64,000 nucleotides of DNA from Gemmatimonadaceae bacterium (lineage in GTDB: Bacteria; Gemmatimonadota; Gemmatimonadetes; Gemmatimonadales; Gemmatimonadaceae): assembly GCA_020851035.1 (NCBI GenBank), contig JADZDM010000021.1, positions 310,001 through 374,000 on the forward strand, in the 5' to 3' direction. The position numbers and the translations under genes are program-made. Shown here piece by piece: positions 1,676-49,147 of the stretch. A model generated the notes under the pieces. The model saw only the letters and a program-made list of their open reading frames with translations. It was not told the DNA's origin and searched no databases. Position 1 is the stretch's first letter, and each line of letters starts with the position of its first letter.

Positions 1676-3520
1676 ATGCGCCCCAGCCGCTGGTTCGCGA
1701 TCGTCACGCTCATCGTCGCGCTGCCCCTCGGCGCGCAGGACGCCCCGCCACGCTTCGACCCCGCGCAGTACACGCGCCGCGTCGAGGACATCCGGATGCG
1801 CGACGGCGTGACACTGCACACGGAGATGCTGGTCCCCGCCGGCGCCACCATGCCGCTGCCCATCCTCTTCCGGCGCACCCCCTACGGCGTCGCCGACGCC
1901 ACGCCGCAGATGCTGATGGCCGGCATGAAGGAACTGGCCGAGGAGGGGTACATCTTCGTGATGCAGGACATCCGCGGGCGGTACCGGTCGCAGGGCGGCT
2001 TCGTGATGCAACGCCCGCTGCGCGCCGCCGGGAGCACGGACATCGACGAGAGCACTGACGCCTGGGACACCATCGACTGGCTGGTGAAGCACGTCCCGAA
2101 CAACAACGGCCGGGTGGGCATGTTCGGGGTCTCGTACGACGGCTGGACCGCAGCGATGGCCATGCTCGACCCGCACCCGGCACTGCGGGCCGTCAGCGAG
2201 CAGGCGTCACCGGCCGACATGTTCCTCGGCGACGACTTCCACCACAACGGCGCGTTCCGGCTCAGCTACGGCTTCGAGTACGCGTACCTCACCGAGGCGA
2301 CCAAGGAGAACAGCGAGTACCGGTTCACCCCCGCCGACACGTACGAGTGGTACCTGAAGGTCGGTCCGCTGCGGAACATCCAGGCCAACATCCTGCGGGA
2401 CACGGTGCTCCCCACCTGGCGCGACTTCGCGCAGCACCCGAACTACGACGCGTTCTGGAAGCGGCAGTCGATGCACCGCTCGCTCACGCGCGTCACCGTC
2501 CCCACGCTGCACGTGGCCGGCTGGTGGGACCAGGAGGACTTCTACGGCCCGGTCACGATCTACCGCACGCTCGAGCAGCGGGACTCGCTGAGCCGGAACA
2601 CGCTGGTGGTGGGCCCGTGGATCCACGGCTCGTGGAGTCGCGGCACCGGGCAGGCGCTGGACTCGATCGACTTCGGCACGCCCACCGCGACGTACTTCCG
2701 GCAGGAGATCCAGGCCCCGTTCTTCGCCTGGTGGCTGAAGGACCACGGCAAGTCGCCGGTGAAGGAGGCGCTGGTGTTCGAGTCGGGGAGCAACACCTGG
2801 AAGGCATACGATGCGTGGCCCGCCCCCGGTGCGACCACCCGCTCGCTCTACTTCCAGCCCGGCGGCCGCCTGACGTTCACGCCGCCCACCGCACGCGGCA
2901 ACGCCGCCGACCGTTTCGTGAGTGATCCCGCCGACCCCGTGCCGTACCGACGCCGCCCGATCGAGGCGACCTACGCGTCCACCGGGTCCCGGTGGTACAC
3001 GTGGCTGCTGCAGGACCAGCGCTTCATCGCGGACCGCAAGGACGTGCTGCACTGGACCACCGCCCCGCTCACCGAGGACGTGGTGCTGGCGGGCGACATC
3101 ACCGCGAGGCTGTTCGTGAGCACCACCGGCCAGGATGCCGACTGGGTCGTGAAGCTGATCGACGTCTACCCCGACACGCCAGCCACTCCCGCGAAGGTGC
3201 GCGGCTACGAGCTGATGGTCGCCAACGACGTCTTCCGCAGCCGCTTCCGCGAGAGCTTCGAGGAGCCGAAGCCGCTGGTGCCCAACACCGTGACGCCGAT
3301 CACCGTGGACCTGCACACGCAGGCCTACCGCTTCCTCAGGGGCCACCGGATCATGGTGCAGGTGCAGAGCAGCTGGTTCCCCATCATCGACCGCAACCCG
3401 CAGACCTGGGTGCCGAACATCTTCGAGGCCACCGAGGCCGATTTCCGCGCGCAGACGCACGCCGTCCACCGCTCTGCCGCCGCGCCGTCGCGCATCGAGA
3501 TTCAGACGGTCAGGCCATAG
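1676..3520 (+). CDS. CocE/NonD family hydrolase (X-Pro dipeptidyl-peptidase S15-like)
   Basis: This is a 614-residue secreted serine hydrolase. An ATG at 1676 starts a clean signal peptide (RWFAIVTLIVALPLGAQ); earlier in-frame ATGs add only implausible sequence. The S15 alpha/beta-hydrolase core has RMRDGVTLHTE at the start, RRTPYG, the nucleophile elbow GMFGVSYDGW (Ser 153), GWWDQEDFYGP, and the His-bearing GPWIHGSWSRG. The C-terminal third is the jelly-roll domain of the family (QDADWVVKLIDVYPDTP, then QVQSSWFPIIDRNPQT). Family members include cocaine esterase, glutaryl-7-ACA acylase and alpha-amino-acid ester hydrolases, so the substrate could be an acyl ester, amide or X-Pro peptide. Length (about 600) is typical and all three catalytic regions are intact. 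It stands alone, convergent with the alpha/beta hydrolase at 3749. Confidence 0.9.
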   Translation: MRPSRWFAIVTLIVALPLGAQDAPPRFDPAQYTRRVEDIRMRDGVTLHTEMLVPAGATMPLPILFRRTPYGVADATPQMLMAGMKELAEEGYIFVMQDIRGRYRSQGGFVMQRPLRAAGSTDIDESTDAWDTIDWLVKHVPNNNGRVGMFGVSYDGWTAAMAMLDPHPALRAVSEQASPADMFLGDDFHHNGAFRLSYGFEYAYLTEATKENSEYRFTPADTYEWYLKVGPLRNIQANILRDTVLPTWRDFAQHPNYDAFWKRQSMHRSLTRVTVPTLHVAGWWDQEDFYGPVTIYRTLEQRDSLSRNTLVVGPWIHGSWSRGTGQALDSIDFGTPTATYFRQEIQAPFFAWWLKDHGKSPVKEALVFESGSNTWKAYDAWPAPGATTRSLYFQPGGRLTFTPPTARGNAADRFVSDPADPVPYRRRPIEATYASTGSRWYTWLLQDQRFIADRKDVLHWTTAPLTEDVVLAGDITARLFVSTTGQDADWVVKLIDVYPDTPATPAKVRGYELMVANDVFRSRFRESFEEPKPLVPNTVTPITVDLHTQAYRFLRGHRIMVQVQSSWFPIIDRNPQTWVPNIFEATEADFRAQTHAVHRSAAAPSRIEIQTVRP

Positions 3521-3523
3521 CGG

Positions 3524-3752
3524 CAACTGCAACTGCGTTGACGCAAGGGCGCAAAGGGCGCGAAGAACGCAAAGAACTGCAACAGCCTCTTGAGGGAACT
3601 GCAACAGCGGCGATGAAGGCGACGGACGCGGCTCCGCGAGCGCAGTCCCCTCAATCCGCAGAGCGCCCACGCTCACGCCGGCCGGTCTTCTGCGCAGACT
3701 TCTTTGCGTCCTTCGCACCCTTTGCGCCTGTGCGTCAGGCAGTGCAGTTCAG
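3524..3752. repeat. Nested palindromic element, class A (GCAAAGG arms)
   Basis: The outer arms are imperfect inverted repeats of about 50 bp: GCAACTGC then GACGCAAGGGCGCAAAGGGC on the left, and CCTTTGCGCC, TGCGTC, GTGCAGTTC on the right. An inner pair TGAGGGAACTGC / GCAGTCCCCTCA flanks the centre. The right end reaches into the stop codon of the minus-strand hydrolase. Further copies lie at 17494-17711 and 40767-41002, and B-armed relatives at 23567-23714 and 27164-27419. No protein is encoded; the element lies between convergent genes. Confidence 0.85.
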
Positions 3753-4510
3753 CGCGCCGCGAGCAGCAGCCGGACCAGCGCCGGGATGGCCGAGCGTTCC
3801 GGCGTGTGATCCGTGACCAGCGTGTCCACCCGGAACGCCCGCGCCGCCGCGCGTGCGGCGGAGGGTGAGAAGGAGTCGGTGGTCGCGCCCTTGTCGATCG
3901 TCAGGATGTAGTGGCCCGGGATGCGGCGCGCCGCGGGGTTGGTGAGCACGAGGGTGTCGCTCAGCGTCTTGAGCGGGTGTGGCACATCCTTCGGTGCCGG
4001 CGCGTCGGCCGGCACCCAGCCCGGCACGATCATCCCGTCGCGGGCGCTCGACGCCACCATCTGGTTGAACTCGGCCTGCGCCAGCATCGCCAGGCTCTCA
4101 CCCGAGTCGGGGAGGAAGGCGTCGACGTAGACCACGCGACGGACGCGATCCGCGGCCTGGTCGGCGGCCCCGGTGATCACCATGCCGCCGTAGCTGTGCC
4201 CGACCAGGATCACGTCGCGCAGGTTCTCGAAGCGGATGGTGTTGACGACGTCGCTGATGTGGGTCTGCAGACCGACCTGCGGCGAGGCCAGGTGGACCCG
4301 CTCGCCGAGCCCGGTGAGCGTGACGCGGTGCACGTGGTGCCCGCGCGCGGTGAGGGCCGAGTCCACGGCCTTCCAGTCCCACCCGCCGCCCCAGGCGCCG
4401 TGGACGATGACGTACTCCTTCGGCGCCGCGGCGCGGCGCGCCTGCGCGGTGAGCGCGGCGGGGGCGAGGAGCAGGGCGAGCGTGGCGAGGCTGCGGACGC
4501 GGGATGGCAT
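3749..4510 (-). CDS. Secreted alpha/beta hydrolase (methylesterase/EstC-like)
   Basis: The protein is 253 residues and starts MPSRVRSLATLALLLAPAAL, a clear signal peptide ending near TAQA. The fold is a compact alpha/beta hydrolase: oxyanion strand YVIVHGAWGGGWDW (residues 33-46), nucleophile elbow LVGHSYGGM (Ser 106), a YVDAFLPDSGES segment after strand 6, and a C-terminal TDHTPERSAIP that carries the likely catalytic His. This resembles the plant methylesterase / bacterial EstC group, which hydrolyses small esters, but the leaderless members of that group are cytoplasmic while this one should be exported. It is a single gene flanked on both sides by repeat elements, and its stop codon lies in the end of the class A palindrome. 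The substrate cannot be told from sequence. Confidence 0.85.
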   Translation of the reverse strand: MPSRVRSLATLALLLAPAALTAQARRAAAPKEYVIVHGAWGGGWDWKAVDSALTARGHHVHRVTLTGLGERVHLASPQVGLQTHISDVVNTIRFENLRDVILVGHSYGGMVITGAADQAADRVRRVVYVDAFLPDSGESLAMLAQAEFNQMVASSARDGMIVPGWVPADAPAPKDVPHPLKTLSDTLVLTNPAARRIPGHYILTIDKGATTDSFSPSAARAAARAFRVDTLVTDHTPERSAIPALVRLLLAAR

Positions 4511-4573
4511 GCGGCGGTTCCAGGGGGGCGGGGGGCGGCAGGTGTGGAGCGAAGCATCACCACCGGGTCGACC

Positions 4574-4707
4574 ATTTCAAGGGGACGGGGACCGTGAGCG
4601 GAGGGGGGCCAGCCACGCGCAGGATCCGCGTCCGCGTGCACGATCCCCGTCCCCTTGAAGCCGCTATCTCCGTCCCCTTGAACTCAAGATCTCCGTCCCC
4701 TTGAACT
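4574..4707. repeat. GTCCCCTTGAAC-type repeat cluster, class C
   Basis: One inverted copy (TTTCAAGGGGACGGGGACC, 4574-4593) is followed by three direct copies of (G)ATC(C/T)CCGTCCCCTTGAA at about 4642, 4666 and 4689. The inverted copy and the first direct copy could fold into a long hairpin. The same unit forms a seven-copy array at 52621-52789. It lies between two minus-strand genes and could act as a transcript-end structure. Confidence 0.8.
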
Positions 4708-4720
4708 TTGCGACGCCCGA

Positions 4721-5251
4721 CTACCGCCGTCCCCCCGTCACCACCACCCCCAGCTCCGGCGCCCCCCGGTCGTAGCAAACCACCCGGCGACCCGCCCCCG
4801 CCCCCAGCTGCTGGTACGTCAACGTTCCGCTGTCCCCCGCCCACGTCAGCGGGACCTCGATGATCCGGTTCTGCCAGCACGATTCCACCAGCTCCGACCG
4901 GCTCGCCACCAGCCGCCACGACACCAGCCGGAGCCACACGATCGCCGTCTCGTAGCCGGCGCCACACGCGCCCGCCCCGAACCCCTTCCGCTTCGACGGC
5001 CCGTTCACGCTCAGCAGCAGGTACTGTGCACCAGCCACCTCGCGCGCGTCGAGCACCTCGAGGGTGTCCATGTCCACCCGCACCGCCGGCGGCAGCCGCA
5101 GCGTATAGGCCACACCCTGCACCGTGATCGTGAGCTGCGACCCCGACGCCTGCGCGGCGTCCGGCCGCAGGCGCTGCGCTCCGGCACCACCGGACGCAGC
5201 CAGCAGCGAGAGAACGAGGCACGCGATGGTGCGGACGCAGCGGCGGGACAT
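4721..5251 (-). CDS. Hypothetical secreted protein
   Basis: The protein is 176 residues and is not recognised. It begins MSRRCVRTIACLVLSLLAA, a good signal peptide with cleavage after GGAGAQ, so it should be periplasmic or surface-exposed. The mature part is a small, beta-rich domain with three Cys residues (GACGAGYE, SCWQNR, VVCYDRG) that could form one or two disulphides, and a segment QLTITVQGVAYTLRLP that resembles the strands of a small barrel. Spacing to the next minus gene is 61 bases, so it may be co-transcribed with the NTF2-like gene at 5313-5783. Codon use is like its neighbours, supporting a real gene. Confidence 0.7.
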   Translation of the reverse strand: MSRRCVRTIACLVLSLLAASGGAGAQRLRPDAAQASGSQLTITVQGVAYTLRLPPAVRVDMDTLEVLDAREVAGAQYLLLSVNGPSKRKGFGAGACGAGYETAIVWLRLVSWRLVASRSELVESCWQNRIIEVPLTWAGDSGTLTYQQLGAGAGRRVVCYDRGAPELGVVVTGGRR

Positions 5252-5312
5252 GCGTGGAAGATGGTCGCGACGGCAGCCCGGCGACCAGCCGGCATCCGAC
5301 GCGCCGCGTCGA

Positions 5313-5783
5313 TCACCGCACGCCCACGAACCGCAGCCCCCCGAATCGCGTCTGCTCCGACGTCAGCCGCACCGCCAGCAGGCGCCAGCCGTCCGGGCCA
5401 CGCTTCCAGGTGTAGGTGCCGCGACGCTCGATGTTCCAGCGCACGGCGAACACCAGGAACACGCGGAGGTCGATCCGCGCGACCTGCGTGCCACTCTCCG
5501 TGACACACAACCCCTCGAGCGAGGATTCGTCGCGCCGGAAGCGGGTGTCGAAGCCCACCAGCCGCGCGAACTGCACCTGTACGTCCCGCCCGATCTCCTC
5601 CGCCGTGCGGGTGCGCCCGTCGGGATCATGCCACGTGAAGTCCGGCGCGAGGAAGGCCGAATACGCTGCCGTGTCGCACCGGCGGAAGGCGTCACGCGTG
5701 CGCGCATGCGCCGCGTCGATCTCGTGCAGCAGTGCCTGCGGCACCGCGGGATACACGGCAGTCACCGCCGGCGCGCCCGTCAT
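5313..5783 (-). CDS. NTF2-like / DUF4440-type protein
   Basis: The protein is 156 residues from the ATG at 5783; the open frame continues upstream to 5942, but that part is low-complexity and untypical. The fold pattern is that of the SnoaL/DUF4440 (nuclear transport factor 2-like) superfamily: a first helix IDAAHARTRDAFRRCDTAAYSAFLAPDFTWHDPDGRT, a second helix with IGRDVQVQFARLV, then the curved sheet ending RRGTYTWKRGPDGWRLLAVR. The tryptophan-rich final strand (DGWRLLAVR) is a family hallmark. Members are either small enzymes (isomerases, cyclases) or ligand binders; nothing here fixes a reaction. No signal peptide is seen, so it is probably cytoplasmic. Confidence 0.72.
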   Translation of the reverse strand: MTGAPAVTAVYPAVPQALLHEIDAAHARTRDAFRRCDTAAYSAFLAPDFTWHDPDGRTRTAEEIGRDVQVQFARLVGFDTRFRRDESSLEGLCVTESGTQVARIDLRVFLVFAVRWNIERRGTYTWKRGPDGWRLLAVRLTSEQTRFGGLRFVGVR

Positions 5784-5983
5784 GCCGGCGCGCCCCCACA
5801 GGGGTGACGACGGCGCGTTCCGGGGGCACCGGGTGCGCGCCGTCCCGGACGGCTGCGGTGGCGAGGACGGCGCGGTCGACGATCGGGCACGAGCGGGCGG
5901 CTGCGGGTGGGCATCGTGTGCCACCCATGACGTCGCGCGCACCGATGCGTCACGATGCCTGCCTCACAGCGACATCCCACCAG

Positions 5984-6727
5984 CTACCGTGGCACGTGGC
6001 CCACCGCTGACGACACCTCCGCCGCCGCGGCCGTCACCAGCTTCACCAGCACCTGCAGCCGCTCGTCCGTGACACGGGCACGCGGCCCACCCACCGAGAG
6101 CGCCCCGATGACCTCGCCCGTGAAGCTGCGCACCGGCGCCGCCGCCGCGTAGACGCCGTCGATCCACTCCCCCCGGCCCGTCGCATACCCCGCCGTGCGG
6201 ATGTCGGCCAGGTGCCGGGTGAGCACCGCGGGATCGGTGATCGTGGTGGATGTCTGCGCGGTGAAGAGATCGGTGAAGAGCGTGCTGCGCAGGTCGTCCG
6301 GCATGAACGCCAGCAGCACCTTGCCCCCTGCCGAGGCGTGCAACGGAACGCGTCCACCGATCTGGCCCGGCACCATCAGCGGCTGCTGGCTCGCGGCAAT
6401 GAGGACCGTCACCCCCTCGGCCCCGCCACGCACCATCAGGCTCGCCGTCTCCCGCGATTCCCCGGCCAGTGCCCGCAGCACGGGCGCCGCCGCACGCTGC
6501 AGGCTGCTCGAGCGCTGCGCCAGCGAGCCGAGCGCCGCCAGCCGGATCCCGAGGCGGTACCGGCCGCTGTCGTCGTCCTGGTCGAGCAGGCCCGAGCCCG
6601 CCATCCGCGCCAGCAGGCGATACGCCGTGCTGCGCGGCAACCGCAACGCCCGCGCGGCCGCCGCCGGCGCCCACTCCGGCTTCTCGTCGGAAAAGAGTGA
6701 CAGGATCGCGTTGAGCTTGTCGAACAA
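5984..6727 (-). CDS. IclR family transcriptional regulator (copy 1)
   Basis: The protein is 247 residues from a TTG at 6727, chosen because GGGAGG lies five bases upstream and because it lines up with the start of the neighbouring paralogue (both begin with KLNAIL). An in-frame ATG at 6763 is the alternative. It has an N-terminal winged helix-turn-helix (about residues 1-60; LRLPRSTAYRLLARMAGSGLL is the recognition part) and a C-terminal IclR effector domain with VPLHASAGGKVLLAFMP and GVYAAAAPVRSFTGEVIGALSVGG. IclR proteins bind small acids or aromatics and control catabolic genes. No obvious target operon adjoins it, and the neighbour on the 5' side is a second IclR protein. Confidence 0.88.
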   Translation of the reverse strand: MFDKLNAILSLFSDEKPEWAPAAAARALRLPRSTAYRLLARMAGSGLLDQDDDSGRYRLGIRLAALGSLAQRSSSLQRAAAPVLRALAGESRETASLMVRGGAEGVTVLIAASQQPLMVPGQIGGRVPLHASAGGKVLLAFMPDDLRSTLFTDLFTAQTSTTITDPAVLTRHLADIRTAGYATGRGEWIDGVYAAAAPVRSFTGEVIGALSVGGPRARVTDERLQVLVKLVTAAAAEVSSAVGHVPR

Positions 6728-7007
6728 GTCTGCCTCCCGGGTCGAACCCCTTGGCACGCACACACCCGGGGGTGCGGCGGTTGCGCGTGAGCGCCTCCCA
6801 GCAAGACCTGCTCGGCGGCGACGTCACCATCGCCGCTGCCCACGCGACCGAATGTCCCACTCAGCGAGACGCTGTCTCGATGAATGGCACAAAATGCGGA
6901 CGCAATCCGGTTTCCAGGATCGCATCCGCAGCGTCGCACCAACATCGGTGTCTCTGCATCAATGCGCCAGCCCGGCACCGCACCAGCGCCAGCCCCTGCC
7001 GCACGAC

Positions 7008-7793
7008 TCAGCCCGCGACCGCCCGCGCCCCCACGTCATCCGACCGCAACGTGGCTTCGAGCGCCCGGTAGGCCAGCGCCACCTCTGCAGCGGCCTGAGC
7101 CACCAGCGCGCCGAGCTCCTGCACCCGGGCGTCGGTCAGGCGCGATGCCGGACCGGCAAGCATCACGGAGGAGACGACTGAACGCCCGGGATTTCTCACC
7201 GGGGACGCGACACCGACATCGCCATCCCGCCAGGCCCCCCCGCGCATCACGGACACACCCGCCTCCCTCGCATCCAGCAGCGCGCCATCGAGCGCCGCTG
7301 GATCCGGGATCGCCGTGGCCGTGGCTGACGCCAGCGAACCGCGCAGCATCGTGCGCCGCTCCTCATCGGGCAGCGCCGAAAGGATCGCGCGACCGCCGGC
7401 CGTGGCATGCAACGGCGTCCGCTCGCCCAGCAGCGGTGACACCGGTGACCGCGGCCCATCCGCCATCGCGGACAGCACCGCGTGCGAATCGAGGCGCACC
7501 AGCAGCGCCGCCGTCTCCTGTGACTCCCACGCCAGGCGCTGCAACACCGGGTACGCCGCGCGCTGCAGGGCCGTCGAGCGCTGCGCGATCACGCCGAGCG
7601 ACGCCACGCGCAGCCCGAGCCGGTAGCGGCCGCTCGCGCGATCCGTGTCGATGAAGCCGGCCCCGCTGATCCGGGAGAGCAGGCGGTACGAGGTGCTGCG
7701 TGGGATGGACAGCGCGTTCGCCACGTCGGCCGCCGCCCACTCGGGCCGCTCCGGCGTGAACAGCGCGAGGATGGCGTTCAGTTTCTCGATCAT
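7008..7793 (-). CDS. IclR family transcriptional regulator (copy 2)
   Basis: The protein is 261 residues from the ATG at 7793 (MIEKLNAILALF); longer reading to 7820 is possible but adds untypical residues. The architecture matches copy 1: helix-turn-helix with ALSIPRSTSYRLLSRISGAG and an effector domain with TPLHATAGGRAILSALPDEE and GVASPVRNPGRSVVSSVMLAG. Identity with copy 1 is obvious by eye across the HTH and the ligand-domain core, so they look like an old tandem duplication. The two lie in the same direction 280 bases apart. A long non-coding space upstream (7794-8595) separates it from the kinase gene and may hold operators for this protein. Confidence 0.88.
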   Translation of the reverse strand: MIEKLNAILALFTPERPEWAAADVANALSIPRSTSYRLLSRISGAGFIDTDRASGRYRLGLRVASLGVIAQRSTALQRAAYPVLQRLAWESQETAALLVRLDSHAVLSAMADGPRSPVSPLLGERTPLHATAGGRAILSALPDEERRTMLRGSLASATATAIPDPAALDGALLDAREAGVSVMRGGAWRDGDVGVASPVRNPGRSVVSSVMLAGPASRLTDARVQELGALVAQAAAEVALAYRALEATLRSDDVGARAVAG

Positions 7794-38354: not shown

Positions 38355-38469
38355 CTGCGTTTCGGCCAACTGCCTCGACCATATGCCGCGGGTGCTGTGC
38401 TTCGTCGCGACTCCGTGACAAGTTCCCGTCACGCCGCACACCCTCCCCCGCGCTCCCGTGCCCGCCACC

Positions 38470-40161
38470 ATGTCCCAGGGTTCCCCGACATACGATGCCA
38501 TCGTCATCGGTTCCGGCATCTCGGGCGGCTGGGCCGCGAAGGAACTCTGCGAGAGGGGACTCAAGACGCTGGTGCTCGAACGCGGCCGCCACGTGGAGCA
38601 CGTCAAGGACTACACCACCGCGCACCTCAAGCCGTGGGAGCTCCCGCACAAGGGCGCCACACCGCGCTCGCTGCTCGACCCCAACCCACTGATCTCGAAG
38701 GCCGCCGGCTACGGCGAGGACACGGCGCACTTCTTCGTGAAGGACGCCGATCACCCGTACGAGCAGGAGAAGCCCTTCGACTGGATCCGCGGCTACCAGG
38801 TCGGCGGCAAGTCGATCCTCTGGGGGCGTGCGTGTCAGCGCTGGAGCCAGCACGAGTTCGTATCGCCGGAAAAGCTGGGCTACGGCATGAACTGGCCCAT
38901 CGGCTATGACGACGTCGCCCCCTGGTACAGCCACGTCGAGCGGTTCATCGGCGTCTGCGGCACGCGCGACGGCCTCGAGGCGATGCCCGATGGCGAGTAC
39001 CTGCCGCCGTTCGACTTCAACTGTGCCGAGCAGCACCTCAAGGATGCGCTGCTGAAGCACTACGGCAACCGTCACGTGGTGCAGGGGCGCTGGGCCCACC
39101 TCTCGAAGCCCACCGCGCTGCACCTGAAGCAGGGGCGCGGCACCTGCCAGGCCCGCAACCTCTGCATGCGGGGCTGCCCCTACGGCGCGTACTTCAGCAG
39201 CAACGCCAGCACGCTGCCCTGGGCGAAGAACACCGGCAACCTCACGCTGCGCCCCGACTCGGTGGTCGAGTCCATCATCCACGACGATGCGAAGGGCAAG
39301 GTCACCGGCGTGCGGGTGATCGACGCGAACACACACGCCGTCACCGAGTACTTCGCGCGGATCATCTTCGTCAACGCCTCGGCGCTGAACTCGAACCTGA
39401 TCCTGCTGAACTCCACGTCGAAGCGCTTCCCGAATGGCCTGGGCAACGACCACGGCATCCTTGGCCACTACGTCGCGCACCACAACTACCGCGCATCGGC
39501 CAACGGCGAGCTGCCGGGATACGAGGACCAGTACGTCACCGGTCGCAACCCGACCGAGTGCATCCTGGTGAACTTCCGCAACCTGGGGAAGCAGGACACC
39601 GACTTCGTTGGCGGCTACACGACATTCACCGGCGGCTATCGCACCCGCGGCCAGTGGACCGGCGCCGCGGCGGGCGGCGAATACAAGGATGCGCAGGCGC
39701 GCCCGGGACCGTGGGGCCTCTACATGTACATGCAGGGCGAGACCATCCCCAAGCACGCCAACCATGTGCGCCTGCACCCCACGCTCAGGGACCAGTGGGG
39801 CATCCCGCGCCTGGTGACGTCGGTGGGCTATGACGACAACGACGAGAAGATGATCCGCGACTGGCGGACGCAGGCCGAGGAGATGCTGAAGGTGGCCGGC
39901 TGCGTGAAGGTCGAGACGCGGGACAACCACCAGGCGCCGGGCCTCGACATTCATGAAATGGGGGGCTGCCGCATGGGCCGCGACCCGAAGACGTCGATGC
40001 TCAACGGCTTCAACCAGCTGCACGCCGCACCGAACGTGTTCGTGACCGATGGAGCGTGCATGACCAGCACCGGCAACCAGAGTCCGTCGATCCTCTACAT
40101 GGCGCTCACCGCCCGCGCGGTGAACCATGCCGTGGACGAGCTGGCGAAACAGGCACTCTGA
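38470..40161 (+). CDS. GMC family oxidoreductase, FAD/Fe-S dehydrogenase alpha subunit (module 2)
   Basis: The protein is 563 residues from the ATG at 38470; a GTG at 38458 adds four. FAD motif AIVIGSGISGGWAAKEL; FAD-binding GYQVGGKSILWGR; C-terminal catalytic segments DIHEMGGCRMGRDPKTS (His) and STGNQSPSILYMALT (Asn). The Cys cluster TCQARNLCMRGC has Cys at 226, 232 and 236, exactly the C-x5-C-x3-C spacing of the 3Fe-4S ligands of FAD glucose dehydrogenase. The partner gamma subunit follows after 15 bases, the opposite order from modules 1 and 3. A Gfo/Idh/MocA oxidoreductase and a NagB-like protein lie further downstream in the same direction. Likely role: periplasmic oxidation of a sugar ring hydroxyl; the exact sugar is unknown. 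Confidence 0.9.
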   Translation: MSQGSPTYDAIVIGSGISGGWAAKELCERGLKTLVLERGRHVEHVKDYTTAHLKPWELPHKGATPRSLLDPNPLISKAAGYGEDTAHFFVKDADHPYEQEKPFDWIRGYQVGGKSILWGRACQRWSQHEFVSPEKLGYGMNWPIGYDDVAPWYSHVERFIGVCGTRDGLEAMPDGEYLPPFDFNCAEQHLKDALLKHYGNRHVVQGRWAHLSKPTALHLKQGRGTCQARNLCMRGCPYGAYFSSNASTLPWAKNTGNLTLRPDSVVESIIHDDAKGKVTGVRVIDANTHAVTEYFARIIFVNASALNSNLILLNSTSKRFPNGLGNDHGILGHYVAHHNYRASANGELPGYEDQYVTGRNPTECILVNFRNLGKQDTDFVGGYTTFTGGYRTRGQWTGAAAGGEYKDAQARPGPWGLYMYMQGETIPKHANHVRLHPTLRDQWGIPRLVTSVGYDDNDEKMIRDWRTQAEEMLKVAGCVKVETRDNHQAPGLDIHEMGGCRMGRDPKTSMLNGFNQLHAAPNVFVTDGACMTSTGNQSPSILYMALTARAVNHAVDELAKQAL

Positions 40162-40176
40162 GGTGAGGTCACGCGC

Positions 40177-40743
40177 ATGGCTGCCATGAACCGACGGGAG
40201 GCCGTGAAGGCCGCCGGCACCCTGCTCGGCGGTGTGGTGGTGCTCGGCGCGCTCCCCGGCTGCGGCCCGCGCCAGCCCGCCGCGACGCCGGACAGCAGCA
40301 AGGTGGTCATCAGCGGCTGCTGCTCGCTGGCGGGCGCCGACGAGGACCTGCTGGTCGCCTTTGCCGACACGCTCCTCCCCGACACGCCCGCCTCGCCCGG
40401 CGCCCGCACGGCGGGCTGCGGCCCGATCATGAACATGCTGCTGAGCGAGTGCTACGACGCCGCGTCGCACAAGGCGGTCATGGAGGGCATCGTCGCCCTG
40501 CGCACCCGCGCGTACACCTTCGAGACGATGGCGCGGCCCGACCGCGAACGACTGCTGACGGAGGTCCACGGCGAGGCGGAGCGCGCAGGCAAGACGCACT
40601 GGTTCCATGCCCTGCGAGACCTGGCGCAACGCGCCTACTTCGCGAGCGAGACCGGCACCACCAAGGCCCTCCGCTACGTCATGGAGCCCGGTGGCTTCAA
40701 GGGCTGTGTCACGCTCGCTCCCGGACAGCCGGCGTGGGCCTGA
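40177..40743 (+). CDS. Tat lipoprotein, gluconate 2-dehydrogenase subunit 3-type gamma subunit (module 2)
   Basis: The protein is 188 residues from the ATG at 40177, supported by GAGG eight bases upstream (ATG 40186 is the alternative). The leader has the Tat motif NRREAVKAAG and a lipobox GALPGCG, so it is predicted to be exported folded and then lipidated at Cys. The mature part has the family signature ADTLLPDTPASPGARTAG and ends with VMEPGGFKGCV. Two extra Cys pairs (SGCCSL and others) are unusual for the family. It follows the alpha subunit by 15 bases. Being a lipoprotein, it could also anchor the complex to a membrane, which modules 1 and 3 may not do. Confidence 0.83.
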   Translation: MAAMNRREAVKAAGTLLGGVVVLGALPGCGPRQPAATPDSSKVVISGCCSLAGADEDLLVAFADTLLPDTPASPGARTAGCGPIMNMLLSECYDAASHKAVMEGIVALRTRAYTFETMARPDRERLLTEVHGEAERAGKTHWFHALRDLAQRAYFASETGTTKALRYVMEPGGFKGCVTLAPGQPAWA

Positions 40744-41054: not shown

Positions 41055-42170
41055 GTGTCCAAGGTGAAGATCGGCATCATCGGCTCTCGCTTCCAGGCCG
41101 ATTGCATCGCCCACTCGGTGAAGATGATGCCCGAGGAGGCCGAGGTCGTGGCGGTGGCGTCGCCGACGCCGGGGAATGCGAAGGCGTTCGCCGAGCGGCA
41201 CGGCATCGCGGGGCACTACACCGACTACCGCGAGATGCTGCGCGACCCGGCCATCGAGATGGTGTCGATCACCGCGCCCAACCGCCTCCATGCCGGGATG
41301 ACCATTGCCGCGGCGGCCGCCGGCAAGCATGTCGTCTGCGAGAAGCCGCTCTGCGTCACGCTCGAGGAGGCCGACGCCATGCTCGCCGCCTGCCAGCAGG
41401 CCGGCGTGCTGCTGATGTACGCCGAGGAGCTGTTCTTCACGCCGAAGTACGTGAAGGCGAAGCAGATGGCCGACGAGGGGGCGTTCGGACGCGTGCACCT
41501 CGTGAAGCAGGGCGAGAAGCACAACGGCCCGCACAGCGACTGGTTCTGGGACGTGAACCAGTCCGGCGGCGGCGCGCTGATGGACCTGGGCTGCCACGGC
41601 ATCGCCTTCTGCTGGTGGTTCCTCGGCAAGCCGAAGGTGAAGAGCGTCTACGCGCACCTCAGCACGCAGGTGAACGGCCACCGCACGCAGGGCGAGGACG
41701 AGGCGCTCTGCATCATCGAGTTCGAGGGCGGCGCCACCGGGGTGGTCGAGAACTCGTGGAGCAAGCCCGGTGGCATGGACGACACCATCGAGATCTACGG
41801 CGAGAAGGGCCAGTGCTACGCCGACCTGCTGATGGGCAATGCGATGCCGACGTACTCCGAGACCGGCTTCGGCTACTCCGTGGAGAAGGCCGGTGCCACC
41901 ACCGGCTGGACCTGGCCGGTGTTCGAGGAGCACTGGAACTACGGCTTCCCGCAGGAGATGCGGCACTTCGCGCGCTGCGTGCGCGGCACGGAGACGCCCA
42001 TCGCTGACGGCGAGACGGGCCGCGTGGTGCAGGAGGTGCTCTACGCCGCCTATGCCTCGGCCGGGCTCGGCCGGAAGGTCGAGCTGCCGTTCCGGCCCAT
42101 GGGCATCACCAAGCCGATCGACCTCTGGAAGAACCCGCAGCTCGCGCAGGCCGCGCTCACGCGCGGGTGA
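41055..42170 (+). CDS. Gfo/Idh/MocA family NAD(P)-dependent oxidoreductase
   Basis: The protein is 371 residues from a GTG at 41055 (starting SKVKIGIIGSRFQADCIAHS). The N-terminal Rossmann domain is recognisable although the glycine motif is unusual (GIIGSRFQADC instead of GxGxxG). The catalytic Lys motif is VVCEKPLCVT and the conserved His region is MDLGCHGIAFCWWF, in the C-terminal alpha/beta domain. Family members oxidise or reduce a sugar carbon, often acting on 3-keto-glycosides. It overlaps the NagB-like gene by GTGA and belongs to an operon with it and the esterase at 42960. There is no signal peptide, so it acts in the cytoplasm, possibly on a product of the upstream GMC enzyme. Confidence 0.92.
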   Translation: MSKVKIGIIGSRFQADCIAHSVKMMPEEAEVVAVASPTPGNAKAFAERHGIAGHYTDYREMLRDPAIEMVSITAPNRLHAGMTIAAAAAGKHVVCEKPLCVTLEEADAMLAACQQAGVLLMYAEELFFTPKYVKAKQMADEGAFGRVHLVKQGEKHNGPHSDWFWDVNQSGGGALMDLGCHGIAFCWWFLGKPKVKSVYAHLSTQVNGHRTQGEDEALCIIEFEGGATGVVENSWSKPGGMDDTIEIYGEKGQCYADLLMGNAMPTYSETGFGYSVEKAGATTGWTWPVFEEHWNYGFPQEMRHFARCVRGTETPIADGETGRVVQEVLYAAYASAGLGRKVELPFRPMGITKPIDLWKNPQLAQAALTRG

Positions 42171-42955
42171 GCGAGACCCCGTTTCGCGTCCTCGACACGC
42201 CACAGCAGATCGGCACGCTGGTGGCGGGGCGCATCCTGGCCGGCATCGCCGAGGCGGCCCGCGAGGGACGCCGCTACCTCCTCGGCCTGCCCACCGGGCG
42301 CACACCGCGGCCCGTGTACGCGGCCATGGCGGCACAGCTCGCGCGCACGCCGCAGTCGCTCGCACACGTCACCCTCGTCATGATGGACGAGTACCTGGTG
42401 GAGGAGGACGGTGGCTACGCCTACGCCCTCGAGCCGGGTGCGCCATCCTGCCACGAGTTCACCCGCACCGAGATCGTGGACCAGCTCAACGCCGCGCTGC
42501 CGGGCGCCGGCGCGCACCTGCGCGAGGCCTCGGTGTGGTACCCCGATCCGCGCGACCCCGCCGACTACGACGCGCAGATCGAGGCAGCCGGCGGCATCGA
42601 CTTCTTCCTCCTCGCGTCGGGGGCGAGCGACGGCCATGTCGCCTTCAATCCGCCCGGCAGCGCGCGCGACAGCCGCTCCCGCGTGGTCGAACTCTCGGAG
42701 GAGACCCGCCGCGACAACCTGCTGACCTTCCCCGCGCTCGGCACGCTCGCAGACGTGCCGCGATATGGCGTCACGGTCGGCATCGCCACCATCGCCGACG
42801 CACGGGAGGCGGTGATGGTGGCATGGGGCAAGGGGAAGCAGGAGACCGTGCAGTGGATGCGCGCCACCTCCACGTACGAGCCCGGCTGGCCGGCCACCGT
42901 GATCCACGAGTGCCGACGCGCCGGGCTGCTCGTGGACCGCGCCGCGGCGTCGTGA
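42167..42955 (+). CDS. NagB-like (glucosamine-6-phosphate deaminase/isomerase) protein with a catalytic Glu replaced by Pro
   Basis: The protein is 262 residues from a GTG at 42167 that overlaps the Gfo gene by four bases. The NagB fold is clear: LLGLPTGRTPRPVYAAM (phosphate-binding type loop), LVMMDEYLVEE (Asp 74, the Asp 72 equivalent) and SGASDGHVAFNPPGS. In NagB, Asp 141, His 143 and Glu 148 act together; here Asp 155 and His 157 are kept but the Glu position is Pro 162. The 6-phosphogluconolactonase form of this motif is also not matched. So the activity is likely altered: another sugar phosphate, another ring-opening or lactonase step, or none. Its position between a Gfo oxidoreductase and an esterase implies a sugar catabolic role. 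Confidence 0.82.
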   Translation: MSETPFRVLDTPQQIGTLVAGRILAGIAEAAREGRRYLLGLPTGRTPRPVYAAMAAQLARTPQSLAHVTLVMMDEYLVEEDGGYAYALEPGAPSCHEFTRTEIVDQLNAALPGAGAHLREASVWYPDPRDPADYDAQIEAAGGIDFFLLASGASDGHVAFNPPGSARDSRSRVVELSEETRRDNLLTFPALGTLADVPRYGVTVGIATIADAREAVMVAWGKGKQETVQWMRATSTYEPGWPATVIHECRRAGLLVDRAAAS

Positions 42956-42959
42956 TGCC

Positions 42960-44108
42960 ATGACCGGTGAGGTGCTCTGGCCGGAGTCGCTGACCACCCG
43001 CGAACGCGTGGAGGGCCGCCTCGCGCGCCTGCTCGCCGGCTTGCCCGGGAGCTGGCTGTTGCGCCTGATCGGTGAGGCGCCGGCGGTGGTGGAGGGATCC
43101 ACGCTCGACCCGCACGTGCAGTTCCTGCTCGCCGCGCGCCGCCGGCGCCCGCCACAACTGCTGGTGGAACCGACGCCGGAGGCGGCACGCCGCCGCTATC
43201 GCCGCGAGATCCAGGCGATTGCCGAGAGTTCCGGCGCGCGCCCCACCCGCGTGCGCTCCGTGCGGAACCTCCAGGTGCCCGGCGGCGACGGGATGCTCGA
43301 CGCACGGCTGTACCTGCCGCCGCTGGTCGACACCGACACACCCGTGCCGTTGCTGCTCTTCCTGCACGGCGGCGGTTTCGTGCTGGGCGACCTCGACACG
43401 CACGACGAACCGTGCCGCATCCTCTGCACTGAAGCCGGCATCCAGGTGCTCAACATCGCGTTCCGCCTCGCGCCCGAGCACCCCTTCCCGGCGCCGCTCG
43501 CCGACGCCTGCGCCGCGATGCGCTGGGCGCAGGACCACGCGGCGAGCCTCGGCGCCGACCCGGGGAGCGTGTGCATCGGCGGTGACAGCGGTGGCGGCAA
43601 CCTCGCCATCGGAGCCTCGCTCGCGCTCGCACGCGAACAGCGCACGCCGGCGGCGATGTTGCTGGTCTATCCGGCCACCGACTTCACGGCAGACCTCCCG
43701 TCGCGACACACCTTCGGCGAGGGGTTCCTCCTCACGGCGGCCGACATGGATGCGTTCGCGACCATCTATGTCGCGGGCGACACCACACGCTGGCTCGACC
43801 CGCGTGCCAGTCCGGTCCGGGATCCCGACCTCCACCTGCTCCCCCCCACGCTCGTCGCCACGGCGGAGTTCGATCCGCTGCGTGACGAGGCGGTGGCGTT
43901 CACCGAGCGGCTCTGCGCCGCAGGCGTGGACGTTCGCACGCGACGCGCGCGCGGGCTCCCGCATGCCTTCATGCACCTGACCACGATCGCGCCTGCCGCG
44001 CGTGTGGCGGCGGTGGAGACGGCTCACGCCTTCCGGGCCATGCTGCGCGAGACTGCGGTGCGACGCCACCGGAACGTGGCGACGACGGAGGCACGCGGCC
44101 GGACCTAG
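42960..44108 (+). CDS. Alpha/beta hydrolase of the hormone-sensitive-lipase family
   Basis: The protein is 382 residues from the ATG at 42960, four bases after the NagB-like gene. It has the HSL oxyanion motif FLHGGGFVLGD (HGGG 136-139), nucleophile GGDSGGGN (Ser 210), the acid in AEFDPLRDE and the His in GLPHAFMH, so the triad is complete. An N-terminal extension of about 80 residues (an HSL cap) precedes the core. Such enzymes hydrolyse short-chain acyl esters; in this operon it may remove acetyl or other acyl groups from a sugar. No signal peptide. Its stop codon and that of the convergent gene on the other strand share the sequence CTAG. Confidence 0.9.
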   Translation: MTGEVLWPESLTTRERVEGRLARLLAGLPGSWLLRLIGEAPAVVEGSTLDPHVQFLLAARRRRPPQLLVEPTPEAARRRYRREIQAIAESSGARPTRVRSVRNLQVPGGDGMLDARLYLPPLVDTDTPVPLLLFLHGGGFVLGDLDTHDEPCRILCTEAGIQVLNIAFRLAPEHPFPAPLADACAAMRWAQDHAASLGADPGSVCIGGDSGGGNLAIGASLALAREQRTPAAMLLVYPATDFTADLPSRHTFGEGFLLTAADMDAFATIYVAGDTTRWLDPRASPVRDPDLHLLPPTLVATAEFDPLRDEAVAFTERLCAAGVDVRTRRARGLPHAFMHLTTIAPAARVAAVETAHAFRAMLRETAVRRHRNVATTEARGRT

Positions 44109-46663: not shown

Positions 46664-46858
46664 GAAGGGCACCGGGTGGCAAGGTGATGTGCGGACGGCG
46701 GAGCAGGCACCTGAGCGGGCCCGACAGCGGATCGTGATGCCAAGAAAGCTGCCATGACAATCCGCAGTGCGCCTCCCGTCGCCTGCACTTGCGGAGATGG
46801 CTACGTTGAAAAAGTAGCCTATCGCGAGTGGCGTGCTCCCTTCACCGCGGGGATGGAC

Positions 46859-47449
46859 ATGAACGACTGGGAGCAGGCTCCGCCGCCGGTCTCGCGGCGC
46901 GAGTTCGTTGGACTCGCGGCACTCGGCGCCGCCTGGCTGGCCGCCGGAACCGCCTGCGCGCGCAGCGACGGAACGCCGGCTTCCGCCCCGCTGGTGCATC
47001 TCACCGCCGCGCAAGCCGCGCAGGTCGATGCCATCACCGCGCGCATCCTGCCCACCGACGACACGCCTGGCGCACGCGAGGCCGGCGTGGTGAGCTTCAT
47101 CGACCAGTCACTGAAGGGCTTCGCGAAGCAGCAGGCGCCGCTCTTTGCCGAGGGGCTCGCGGCGCTGGGTGAGGCTGTCGCCAGGCAGCACGGCAGCACC
47201 GCAACCTTCGCGTCGCTCACCGCCGCGCAGCAGGATGCCATGCTCCGCGGCATCGAGAAGACACCGTTCTTCCAGGCGATCCGCTTCGCGACACTCGCAG
47301 GCTTCCTCTCGCTGCCGAAGTACGGTGGGAACCGTGACTACGTCGGGTGGGACTTCATCGGGCAGGAACGTGCCATGCAGCACAGCGCACCGTTCGGCTG
47401 GTATGACCGCCCCGAAAACCAGCAGGCACTGCTCGGCCGGGTGCTCTGA
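46859..47449 (+). CDS. Gluconate 2-dehydrogenase subunit 3-type gamma subunit (module 3)
   Basis: The protein is 196 residues from the ATG at 46859, which has GGGGA nearby upstream; the ATG at 46853 would leave that sequence touching the codon. The leader SRREFVGLAALGAAWLAAG is a textbook Tat signal. The mature part has ARILPTDDTPGAREAGVVSF and ends with KYGGNRDYVGWDFIG, both hallmarks of the family. The stop TGA is followed directly by the ATG of the GMC subunit, giving zero spacing and likely translational coupling. The role inferred is Tat carrier and partner of the alpha subunit. It lies divergent from the M28 gene at 46663. Confidence 0.88.
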   Translation: MNDWEQAPPPVSRREFVGLAALGAAWLAAGTACARSDGTPASAPLVHLTAAQAAQVDAITARILPTDDTPGAREAGVVSFIDQSLKGFAKQQAPLFAEGLAALGEAVARQHGSTATFASLTAAQQDAMLRGIEKTPFFQAIRFATLAGFLSLPKYGGNRDYVGWDFIGQERAMQHSAPFGWYDRPENQQALLGRVL

Positions 47450-49147
47450 ATGCAGGCGCCGATGTCGATGCCAGGCGCCGCCGCGGCGCCACAGGTGCGG
47501 CAGCCGTCCTACCCGACCACCGACGCGGTGGACTTCGTCGTCATCGGCTCCGGCATCGCCGGTGGGTCGGTGGCCCGCGAGCTCACGCGCAGCGGGTATG
47601 CCGTCGTGCTGCTCGAGCAGGGACGCTCGGTGGGTGTGGAGGACATGGAGCACGACGAACTCGGGGCGTTCGCGTGGCCGCGCTGGACGAACGATCCCGC
47701 CGTCTCGCCGCAGACGTATCGCAAGTCGGCCGCCGACACGGCGAAGCTCCACAACTTCGCGGCCTACGCGCGCGCCGTGGGCGGCACCACGCTGCACTTC
47801 ACGGGCAACTTCTGGCGCTTCCGCCCCATCGACTTCCGCGAGCGGTCGGCGCGCGGCGGGGTGCCCGGCGCCGCGCTGGATGACTGGCCGATCACGTACG
47901 AGGAACTCGAGCCGTACTACACGGCGGTGGAATATGCCGTCGGCGTGTCGGGTGAGGTCGGCGACGACCCGCGCGAGCCGATGCGCTCGAAGCCGTTCCC
48001 GTTGCCGCCGCTGAACGCCACCGGCCCCGGCGTGCTGCTGGAGGTCGGCGCGAAGAAGCTCGGCTGGGCGTCGAAGGCCGCACCGATGGCCATCCTCTCG
48101 CGCGAGTACAAGGGTCGCCAGCCCTGTCACAACTGCGGCTTCTGCCTGGGCTTTCCCTGCGAGTGGGGCGCCAAGTCGGGAGCCAACTGGACCATGGTGC
48201 CGGAGGCGCTGGCCACCGGCCGGTGTGAACTGCGACCGCACAGCTACGTGCGGAAGATCGACACCGACGACGCCGGACGCGTCACCGGTGTCGTCTACTT
48301 CGACAAGGACCGGCGCGAGATCGTCCAGCAGGCGAAGGCCGTGGTGCTCTGTGCGAACGGCGCCGAGACACCGCGCCTGCTGCTCAACTCCATCTCGAAC
48401 CGCTTCCCGGACGGGCTGGCCAACGGCAGCGGCATGGTCGGCCGGCACCTGATGACGAACGGGAATGTCTCGTCCACCGCCGAGTTCGAGCACGAGGTGT
48501 CCGCGCACAAGGGTCCGGTCGTGACGCGGATCACGCAGGAGCCGTATGAGCTGGACGAGACGCTCGGCCTGATCGGCGGCGGCGGCTACGACTTCCGCAT
48601 GTCGGTGCCGGCGCTGATGTGGACGCTCGGCATGCCGGAGGACACCGGCCCGATGTGGGGCAGCGCCTTCAAGCAGCGGATGCGTCCCTGGTTCCGCAAC
48701 TCGATCGAGTGCCTTGGCCACACCACCCAGCTCCCGCAGGCGACCAACAGGGTGGAACTCGATCCCGACCTGAAGGATGCGTGGGGCGTGCCGGCGATGC
48801 GGATCACCTTCCGCGAGCACGAGCATGACATGCGGCTCTTCGCGCACTTCCGGACGCTGGGGCGTGACCTGCTCACGGCCGCCGGCGCGAAGGCGGTGCA
48901 CTCGGGGCCCATCCCCGATTCGCCGGGCAACGCGGTGCACCTGCTCGGCACCGCGCGCATGGGCAACGATCCCGCGACCTCGGTGGTGGACCGGTACCAT
49001 CGCGCCCACGAGGTGCGGAACCTGTTCATCGTGGACGGCAGCAGCTTCGTCACCAGCGGCCGTGGCCAGCCGACGATGACCATCCAGGCACTGGCGTTCC
49101 GCGCGGCGGACCACATCGCGGACTTCGCCCGCAAGGGCGAGATCTGA
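47450..49147 (+). CDS. GMC family oxidoreductase, FAD/Fe-S dehydrogenase alpha subunit (module 3)
   Basis: The protein is 565 residues, starting immediately after the stop of its gamma subunit. FAD motif FVVIGSGIAGGSVARELT; ARAVGGTTLHFTGNFWRF; C-terminal NAVHLLGTARMGNDPATS (His) and TSGRGQPTMTIQALAFR, where the usual Asn-Pro of the active site reads Gln-Pro. The Cys cluster PCHNCGFCLGFPCEWG has Cys at 226, 229, 232 and 237, so the last gap is one residue longer than in modules 1 and 2. It may hold the same Fe-S cluster or a variant. It resembles the sorbosone/gluconate type rather than the other two, so a different sugar or polyol is likely. No cytochrome partner is adjacent. Confidence 0.9.
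   Translation: MQAPMSMPGAAAAPQVRQPSYPTTDAVDFVVIGSGIAGGSVARELTRSGYAVVLLEQGRSVGVEDMEHDELGAFAWPRWTNDPAVSPQTYRKSAADTAKLHNFAAYARAVGGTTLHFTGNFWRFRPIDFRERSARGGVPGAALDDWPITYEELEPYYTAVEYAVGVSGEVGDDPREPMRSKPFPLPPLNATGPGVLLEVGAKKLGWASKAAPMAILSREYKGRQPCHNCGFCLGFPCEWGAKSGANWTMVPEALATGRCELRPHSYVRKIDTDDAGRVTGVVYFDKDRREIVQQAKAVVLCANGAETPRLLLNSISNRFPDGLANGSGMVGRHLMTNGNVSSTAEFEHEVSAHKGPVVTRITQEPYELDETLGLIGGGGYDFRMSVPALMWTLGMPEDTGPMWGSAFKQRMRPWFRNSIECLGHTTQLPQATNRVELDPDLKDAWGVPAMRITFREHEHDMRLFAHFRTLGRDLLTAAGAKAVHSGPIPDSPGNAVHLLGTARMGNDPATSVVDRYHRAHEVRNLFIVDGSSFVTSGRGQPTMTIQALAFRAADHIADFARKGEI

Follow-up and report, generated by a model that had tools for sequence, protein, structure and literature searches.

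The window analysed here is a 64,000-nucleotide stretch of a Gemmatimonadaceae genome (assembly GCA_020851035.1, contig JADZDM010000021.1, positions 310,001 to 374,000). On its plus strand, at 42167..42955, lies a gene with a GTG start that encodes a 262-residue NagB-fold protein of a proline type, referred to below as NagB-P, which was recognised by a match to PF01182 and an AlphaFold2 model. The start of this gene overlaps by 4 bases (GTGA) the 3' end of a Gfo/Idh/MocA oxidoreductase gene (41055..42170, +), assigned by profile match, structure-sequence search and neighbourhood comparison. Further upstream on the same strand, profile matches and neighbourhood comparison identified a GMC oxidoreductase of the FAD dehydrogenase large-subunit type (38458..40161) and its partner, which resembles gluconate 2-dehydrogenase subunit 3 (40177..40743). 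Directly 3' of NagB-P, an alpha/beta hydrolase (Abhydrolase_3; 42960..44108, +) was found by profile match; since a relative of it lies near NagB-P only in locus L071, the closest relative, its membership in the operon is doubtful. We regarded an antisense frame (42050-43102) and the further frames that overlap here as shadow ORFs of GC-rich DNA. At 46754-49147 (+) the window also holds a second Gluconate_2-dh3 gene (46754-47449) paired with a second GMC oxidoreductase gene (47450-49147); this GMC protein is about 28% identical to the first one, and locus L071 carries two further GMC matches at the corresponding place.

The active-site motif of NagB-P reads DGHVAFNPPG (42629..42658, +). As an earlier note on this DNA had claimed, D155 and H157 are kept and P162 (codon CCG, 42650-42652) stands in place of Glu148 of NagB, which translation and alignment with E. 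coli NagB confirmed. The alignment further places an extra residue at Ala153-Ser154 (42623..42628), just 5' of DGH, and Arg45 (42299..42301), within the loop GRTP that we take to be the phosphate loop, at the position of NagB Gly43. Asp74 (42386..42388) corresponds to Asp72 of NagB, presumably the catalytic base, and Lys224 (42836..42838) to Lys208, to which we ascribe a phosphate role; all of these lie on the plus strand.

In profile searches NagB-P scored 48.1 bits against the PF01182 Glucosamine_iso superfamily, above the cut-off of 27, and none of the NCBIfam models reached its cut-off. The best NCBIfam score was to NagB-LmbE (NF002557, 119 bits, cut-off 384), the C-terminal extension of which is absent, as NagB-P ends at 262 residues. 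The NagB equivalog TIGR00502 gave 107.7 bits (cut-off 236.9) and the 6-phosphogluconolactonase (6PGL) model TIGR01198 gave 36.3 bits (cut-off 124.45). The window copy thus stays below the curated thresholds for NagB as well as for 6PGL, although databases name the subgroup 6-phosphogluconolactonase. The AlphaFold2 model (mean pLDDT 93.3, pTM 0.91) found its nearest solved fold in 2bkv, which we take to be the NagB of Bacillus subtilis (Z 32.8, rmsd 1.5 over 233 residues), followed by E. coli NagB 1dea (Z 31.8, rmsd 1.7 over 238 residues). The entry 6nbg ranked behind the other NagB entries (Z 27.4, rmsd 2.6 over 234 residues, 21% identity), and the best 6PGL gave Z 25.1 with an rmsd of 2.3 over 222 residues. 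Foldseek returned the same order, namely NagB entries, then 6nbg, then 6PGL. The predicted structure is therefore closest to NagB and less close to 6-phosphogluconolactonase.

We compared active-site residues in an alignment of 27 non-redundant NagB-P relatives, including the window copy, with 18 comparison sequences (ten NagB-LmbE proteins, four NagB proteins of other loci, E. coli NagB, AgaI and YieK, and the genome's own 6PGL). Exact duplicates were merged, and two copies were kept outside the 27: a 161-residue fragment (L043), which has NPP, and a broken frame (L052). The Glu148 column contains Pro in 24 relatives, Gln in two (L011 and L013), Ser in one (L012) and Glu in none, as opposed to Glu in 16 of the comparison sequences, the other two having Leu (YieK) and Phe (the own 6PGL). 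Every clade member is also longer by one residue in the stretch from the glycine turn to DGH, a feature found in none of the 18 comparison sequences, NagB and 6PGL included, which suggests a reshaped pocket. The Gly43 position is Arg in 27/27, as it is in the genome's own 6PGL. Arg172 of NagB, presumably placed at the phosphate in the E. coli enzyme, is missing in all 27 and replaced by Leu, Gln, Ala or Lys, a loss for which Arg45 might or might not make up. The position of Lys160 is Val or Ile. The equivalents of Asp72, Asp141, His143 and Lys208 are invariant throughout the clade, and the motif that follows Asp72 is DEY in 26 members and DDY in one, versus DER in the own 6PGL. Since the replaced position is common to a clade spanning two phyla, Pro162 is, judged from the alignment, not a matter of chance, and a degenerate single copy was ruled out on the same ground. 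NagB-P looks like a coherent, distinct enzyme subgroup and not a broken copy, as the earlier note had proposed: proline is conserved, glutamate is absent, and other active-site changes run through the whole clade. The outcome that the note had named as refuting, Glu in orthologues with Pro in this copy alone, was thus not seen.

PMC4008608 describes Glu148 of E. coli NagB in a salt link with Lys160 in the T state and in contact with the catalytic His143 in the R state, and PMC4281351 includes both Glu148 and Lys160 among the activator-binding residues. Because both residues are replaced in NagB-P, the allosteric pair is lost together. Glu148 is a partner of His143 and also an allosteric-site residue; therefore its loss alone is no proof of lost deamination, and it is likewise absent from the other fold members YieK and the own 6PGL. 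We found no account of a NagB Glu148 mutant in the open literature. While the subgroup part of the earlier interpretation stood, its second part, a new reaction, is a plausible hypothesis.

In a maximum-likelihood tree the 27 NagB-P sequences fell on one side of a branch with support 96/82; support was 100/98 for the group versus the NagB-LmbE rows and 100/100 for the proteobacterial subclade. Owing to long branches the tree does not settle how the clade relates to NagB, AgaI, YieK and 6PGL. The relatives come from Gemmatimonadaceae and Alphaproteobacteria. Of 395 Gemmatimonadota genomes, 12 have NagB-P (matches at 57-100% identity), and each of these belongs to the Gemmatimonadaceae. NagB-P also occurs in contigs of Alsobacter, Mesorhizobium and Inquilinus, found in a search that used one query and exact patterns and may miss other phyla. 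It is carried on plasmids of Ensifer, Sinorhizobium, Shinella and Gemmatirosa kalamazoonensis. Within the order of the Mesorhizobium locus it was present in 4/397 genomes, the centre genome included, and within the class in 1/385, the centre genome itself. This sparse and patchy distribution would fit horizontal transfer or repeated loss. A betaproteobacterial lineage was rejected: the Roseateles sp. XES5 plasmid is flagged UNVERIFIED_ORG, its operon almost matches the Shinella one, and it was not counted as independent. In that plasmid (L052 12171-12773) NagB-P matches in two pieces, of which the C-terminal one alone is annotated, and the split is likely a frameshift or a sequencing error. 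No description of the subgroup was recognised in the open-licence literature, covered mostly by titles and abstract openings.

Gene neighbourhoods were counted in 15 distinct Gemmatimonadota loci (L008, a duplicate of L036, was not counted) and 13 proteobacterial ones. The control comprised 23 loci with ordinary NagB or NagB-LmbE, where 19 of the 23 have flanks that reach about 1.5 kb at most, which limits the view to immediate neighbours. The most constant partner in Gemmatimonadota is the Gfo/Idh/MocA oxidoreductase, which lies 5' of NagB-P on the same strand in 14/15 loci and is 79-87% identical to that of the window. In the same 15 loci, several of them on contigs cut short, a ROK kinase precedes NagB-P in seven, a GMC gene lies upstream in six and CutC lies 3' in five; eight lack a linked ROK, three of them with a contig end no more than about 1.3 kb from one side of NagB-P. 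Of the 13 proteobacterial loci, 10 have a ROK kinase immediately 3' of NagB-P; the three without it are all Inquilinus loci, in which every partner searched for is absent. In L035 and L066 the ROK gene is about 2.9 kb from NagB-P. Among the control loci, mostly with short flanks, a ROK match was nearby in 1/23. In six proteobacterial loci an IolE-like TIM barrel lies immediately 5' of NagB-P and a Gfo/Idh/MocA oxidoreductase downstream, with profile scores taken on the Shinella copy; these oxidoreductases differ in subfamily from those of Gemmatimonadota. The annotated Shinella operon is a complete sugar operon with an ABC transporter and comprises a substrate-binding protein, a sugar phosphate isomerase/epimerase, a "6-phosphogluconolactonase" (NagB-P), ROK, an ATP-binding protein, two permeases, Gfo/Idh/MocA, TetR and a cupin. 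The oxidoreductase of the window is most like 6nor (164.6 bits) and 6jw6 (158.5 bits), which we take to be 3''-dehydrogenases of aminoglycoside sugars that oxidise C3'', and its GMC protein is most like subunits of fructose and glucose dehydrogenases.

The CutC gene (PF03932, 230 bits) lies directly 3' of NagB-P at L034 8789-9454, and likewise in L032, L036, L037 and L070; such linkage to sugar-phosphate genes fits poorly with the copper-homeostasis label. In L061, a hexuronate-like cluster with KduI-, KduD-, fructuronate reductase- and mannonate dehydratase-like genes (2765-7381, +; identified by eye) is convergent to the NagB-P/ROK pair, and KduI/KduD-like genes were also seen by eye near NagB-P in three Inquilinus loci.

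The linked ROK kinases form two groups that are separate on the tree, about 25% identical, and located on opposite sides of the NagB-P gene. Both keep the catalytic Asp. The Asn preceding it, found in E. coli NanK, NagK and Mak and in the genome's own ROK, is Val in 6/6 members of one group and Ser in 10/10 of the other; of the E. coli kinases in the comparison, four in all, allose kinase alone departs there, with Arg. The ExGH motif reads DxGH in 6/6 of the first group and is lost in 10/10 of the second, with HxGH in NanK and ExGH in the other four control kinases. The zinc motif is absent from the proteobacterial linked group. Presumably the altered residues contact the sugar. Since two different kinases on opposite sides of the gene are both altered at the sugar site, we infer that this suggests a common non-standard sugar. 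At L049 12771-13715, and in its relatives, the ROK has neither the ExGH sugar motif nor the zinc-binding cysteines, and its catalytic Asp is present.

The genome of the window is 95.7% complete. It has a canonical 6PGL elsewhere (161.8 bits, cut-off 124.45), so that identity of NagB-P with the housekeeping 6PGL was ruled out, and it also carries, apart from NagB-P, a NagB-LmbE-type NagB homologue with an open frame of 624 residues. The window operon indeed lacks nagA and an amino-sugar transporter, as had been noted earlier, and a genome-wide profile search gave no NagA above the cut-off (best 30.7 of 225.65 bits). The one full-length ROK, located elsewhere in the genome, is of the canonical type; a ROK of the linked type was not found in this genome and the window operon has no kinase, which counts against a strict kinase-isomerase pair there.

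From the fold, the clade, the residue changes and the gene linkage we infer a substrate, a reaction and an order of steps. Our tentative preference, held at somewhat below even confidence, is that NagB-P may be an aldose-ketose isomerase whose substrate is the 6-phosphate of a hexose without an amino group; this hexose would probably carry a change at C3, through an allo configuration or an origin from a 3-keto sugar. Isomerisation would be the simplest reaction because the equivalents of Asp72, Asp141 and His143 are kept while Glu148 and the allosteric pair are gone, and a hexose altered at C3 is proposed because the relatives of the oxidoreductase and GMC proteins and the ROK changes point there. 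Ring opening would fall to the equivalents of His143 and Asp141, and proton transfer from one to the other of C1 and C2 to that of Asp72, in an enzyme that has dispensed with Glu148 as a partner and with much of the allosteric set for amino sugars. Phosphorylation at C6 would, in most relatives, be the task of the linked ROK kinase. The 3-keto group would be introduced or taken away by the Gfo/Idh/MocA oxidoreductase and, in part of the Gemmatimonadaceae, by the GMC flavin dehydrogenase as well, and epimerisation of the product may be due to a TIM-barrel protein, either IolE-like or CutC. Further points in favour are the nearness of fold and profile to NagB, the frequency of ROK linkage relative to the control loci, the Shinella operon and the lack of a NagA above the cut-off. 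Against the reading count the missing kinase in the window operon, the Gemmatimonadota loci with no ROK linked, the Inquilinus loci devoid of partners, the difference in oxidoreductase subfamily from phylum to phylum and the loss of Arg172.

A lactonase is possible, though rather unlikely. Here the Gfo/Idh/MocA protein would oxidise C1 of a sugar or sugar phosphate to a lactone, which NagB-P would hydrolyse in the manner of 6PGL with His157 as the base. The own 6PGL, with Phe for Glu148 and Arg at the same place of the phosphate loop, is consistent with this, as are the Shinella annotations and the existence of C1 oxidisers, e.g., glucose-fructose oxidoreductase, among Gfo/Idh/MocA relatives. 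However, structure comparison and profile scores both put NagB-P nearer to NagB than to 6PGL, DEY follows Asp72 as in NagB, the genome already has its canonical 6PGL, and 6nor and 6jw6, the best solved relatives of the window oxidoreductase, are presumably not C1 oxidisers. Unlikely, too, is deamination of glucosamine 6-phosphate or of a less common amino sugar phosphate, in which the role of Glu148 would fall to a different residue or to water. NagB is the nearest fold, its Asp72, Asp141 and His143 are kept, and a relative (L011/L067) adjoins a gene seen by eye to resemble YdjC/ChbG deacetylase and cut by the contig end. Against this, 16/16 of the NagB, AgaI and NagB-LmbE sequences used for comparison retain Glu148, neither nagA nor an amino-sugar transporter is linked, NagA above the cut-off is lacking genome-wide, and a NagB-LmbE-type homologue is present in the same genome. 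Other chemistry on a 3-keto sugar 6-phosphate, such as hydrolytic C-C cleavage or a 3-keto/2-keto shift, would agree with the linkage to likely 3-keto-sugar oxidoreductases and with the extra loop residue, but we know of no precedent in the NagB fold and consider it improbable. A degenerate or non-catalytic, e.g., regulatory, protein is very improbable: structure comparison shows the same fold as the effector domain of SorC/DeoR/CggR regulators, but the whole 262 residues of NagB-P are NagB fold, the catalytic Asp, His and lysine are invariant in 27/27 members from two phyla, and the gene sits within sugar operons.

We regard it as nearly an even call that NagB-P forms a separate family with a reaction new to this fold, acting on a C3-modified hexose 6-phosphate. 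With the altered ROK and the oxidoreductase it would then make up a catabolic route not described before, which either originated in Gemmatimonadota and Alphaproteobacteria or was transferred from one to the other. If true, this would be an uncharted sugar pathway in which kinase and isomerase have both departed from canonical sugar sites, and NagB-P would be a natural test of the role of Glu148 in NagB.

Among known systems, NagB (E. coli 1dea, B. subtilis 2bkv) shares with NagB-P the whole fold, DEY with Asp72, DGH, F-N, T-R and Lys208. In contrast, NagB-P has Pro for Glu148, the residue added before DGH and Arg for Gly43, has lost Arg172 and Lys160, is about 29% identical to E. coli NagB, and has no NagA partner. 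6-Phosphogluconolactonase (DevB/Pgl) has the fold and DGH in common with NagB-P, lacks Glu148 and, in the own Pgl, has the phosphate-loop Arg, but it carries DER where NagB-P has DEY, and NagB-P scores much more weakly against the pgl profile. E. coli YieK and K. pneumoniae KP1_5497 (6nbg) are NagB homologues; YieK, also without Glu148, has a long branch and joins the tree outside the NagB-P clade. E. coli YieK (L074 2672-3394, -) is labelled a putative glucosamine-6-phosphate deaminase, and because of the Leu in its Glu148 column this label may be wrong too. Unlike NagB-P, the NagB-LmbE fusion (PRK02122 type) keeps Glu148, has a long frame (624 residues here) and forms a separate clade. Finally, the allose operon of E. 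coli (alsK, alsE, rpiB) follows a similar plan of ABC transporter, ROK kinase, isomerase and epimerase; however, its isomerase is RpiB, which has a non-NagB fold, whereas NagB-P operons add a Gfo/Idh/MocA oxidoreductase.
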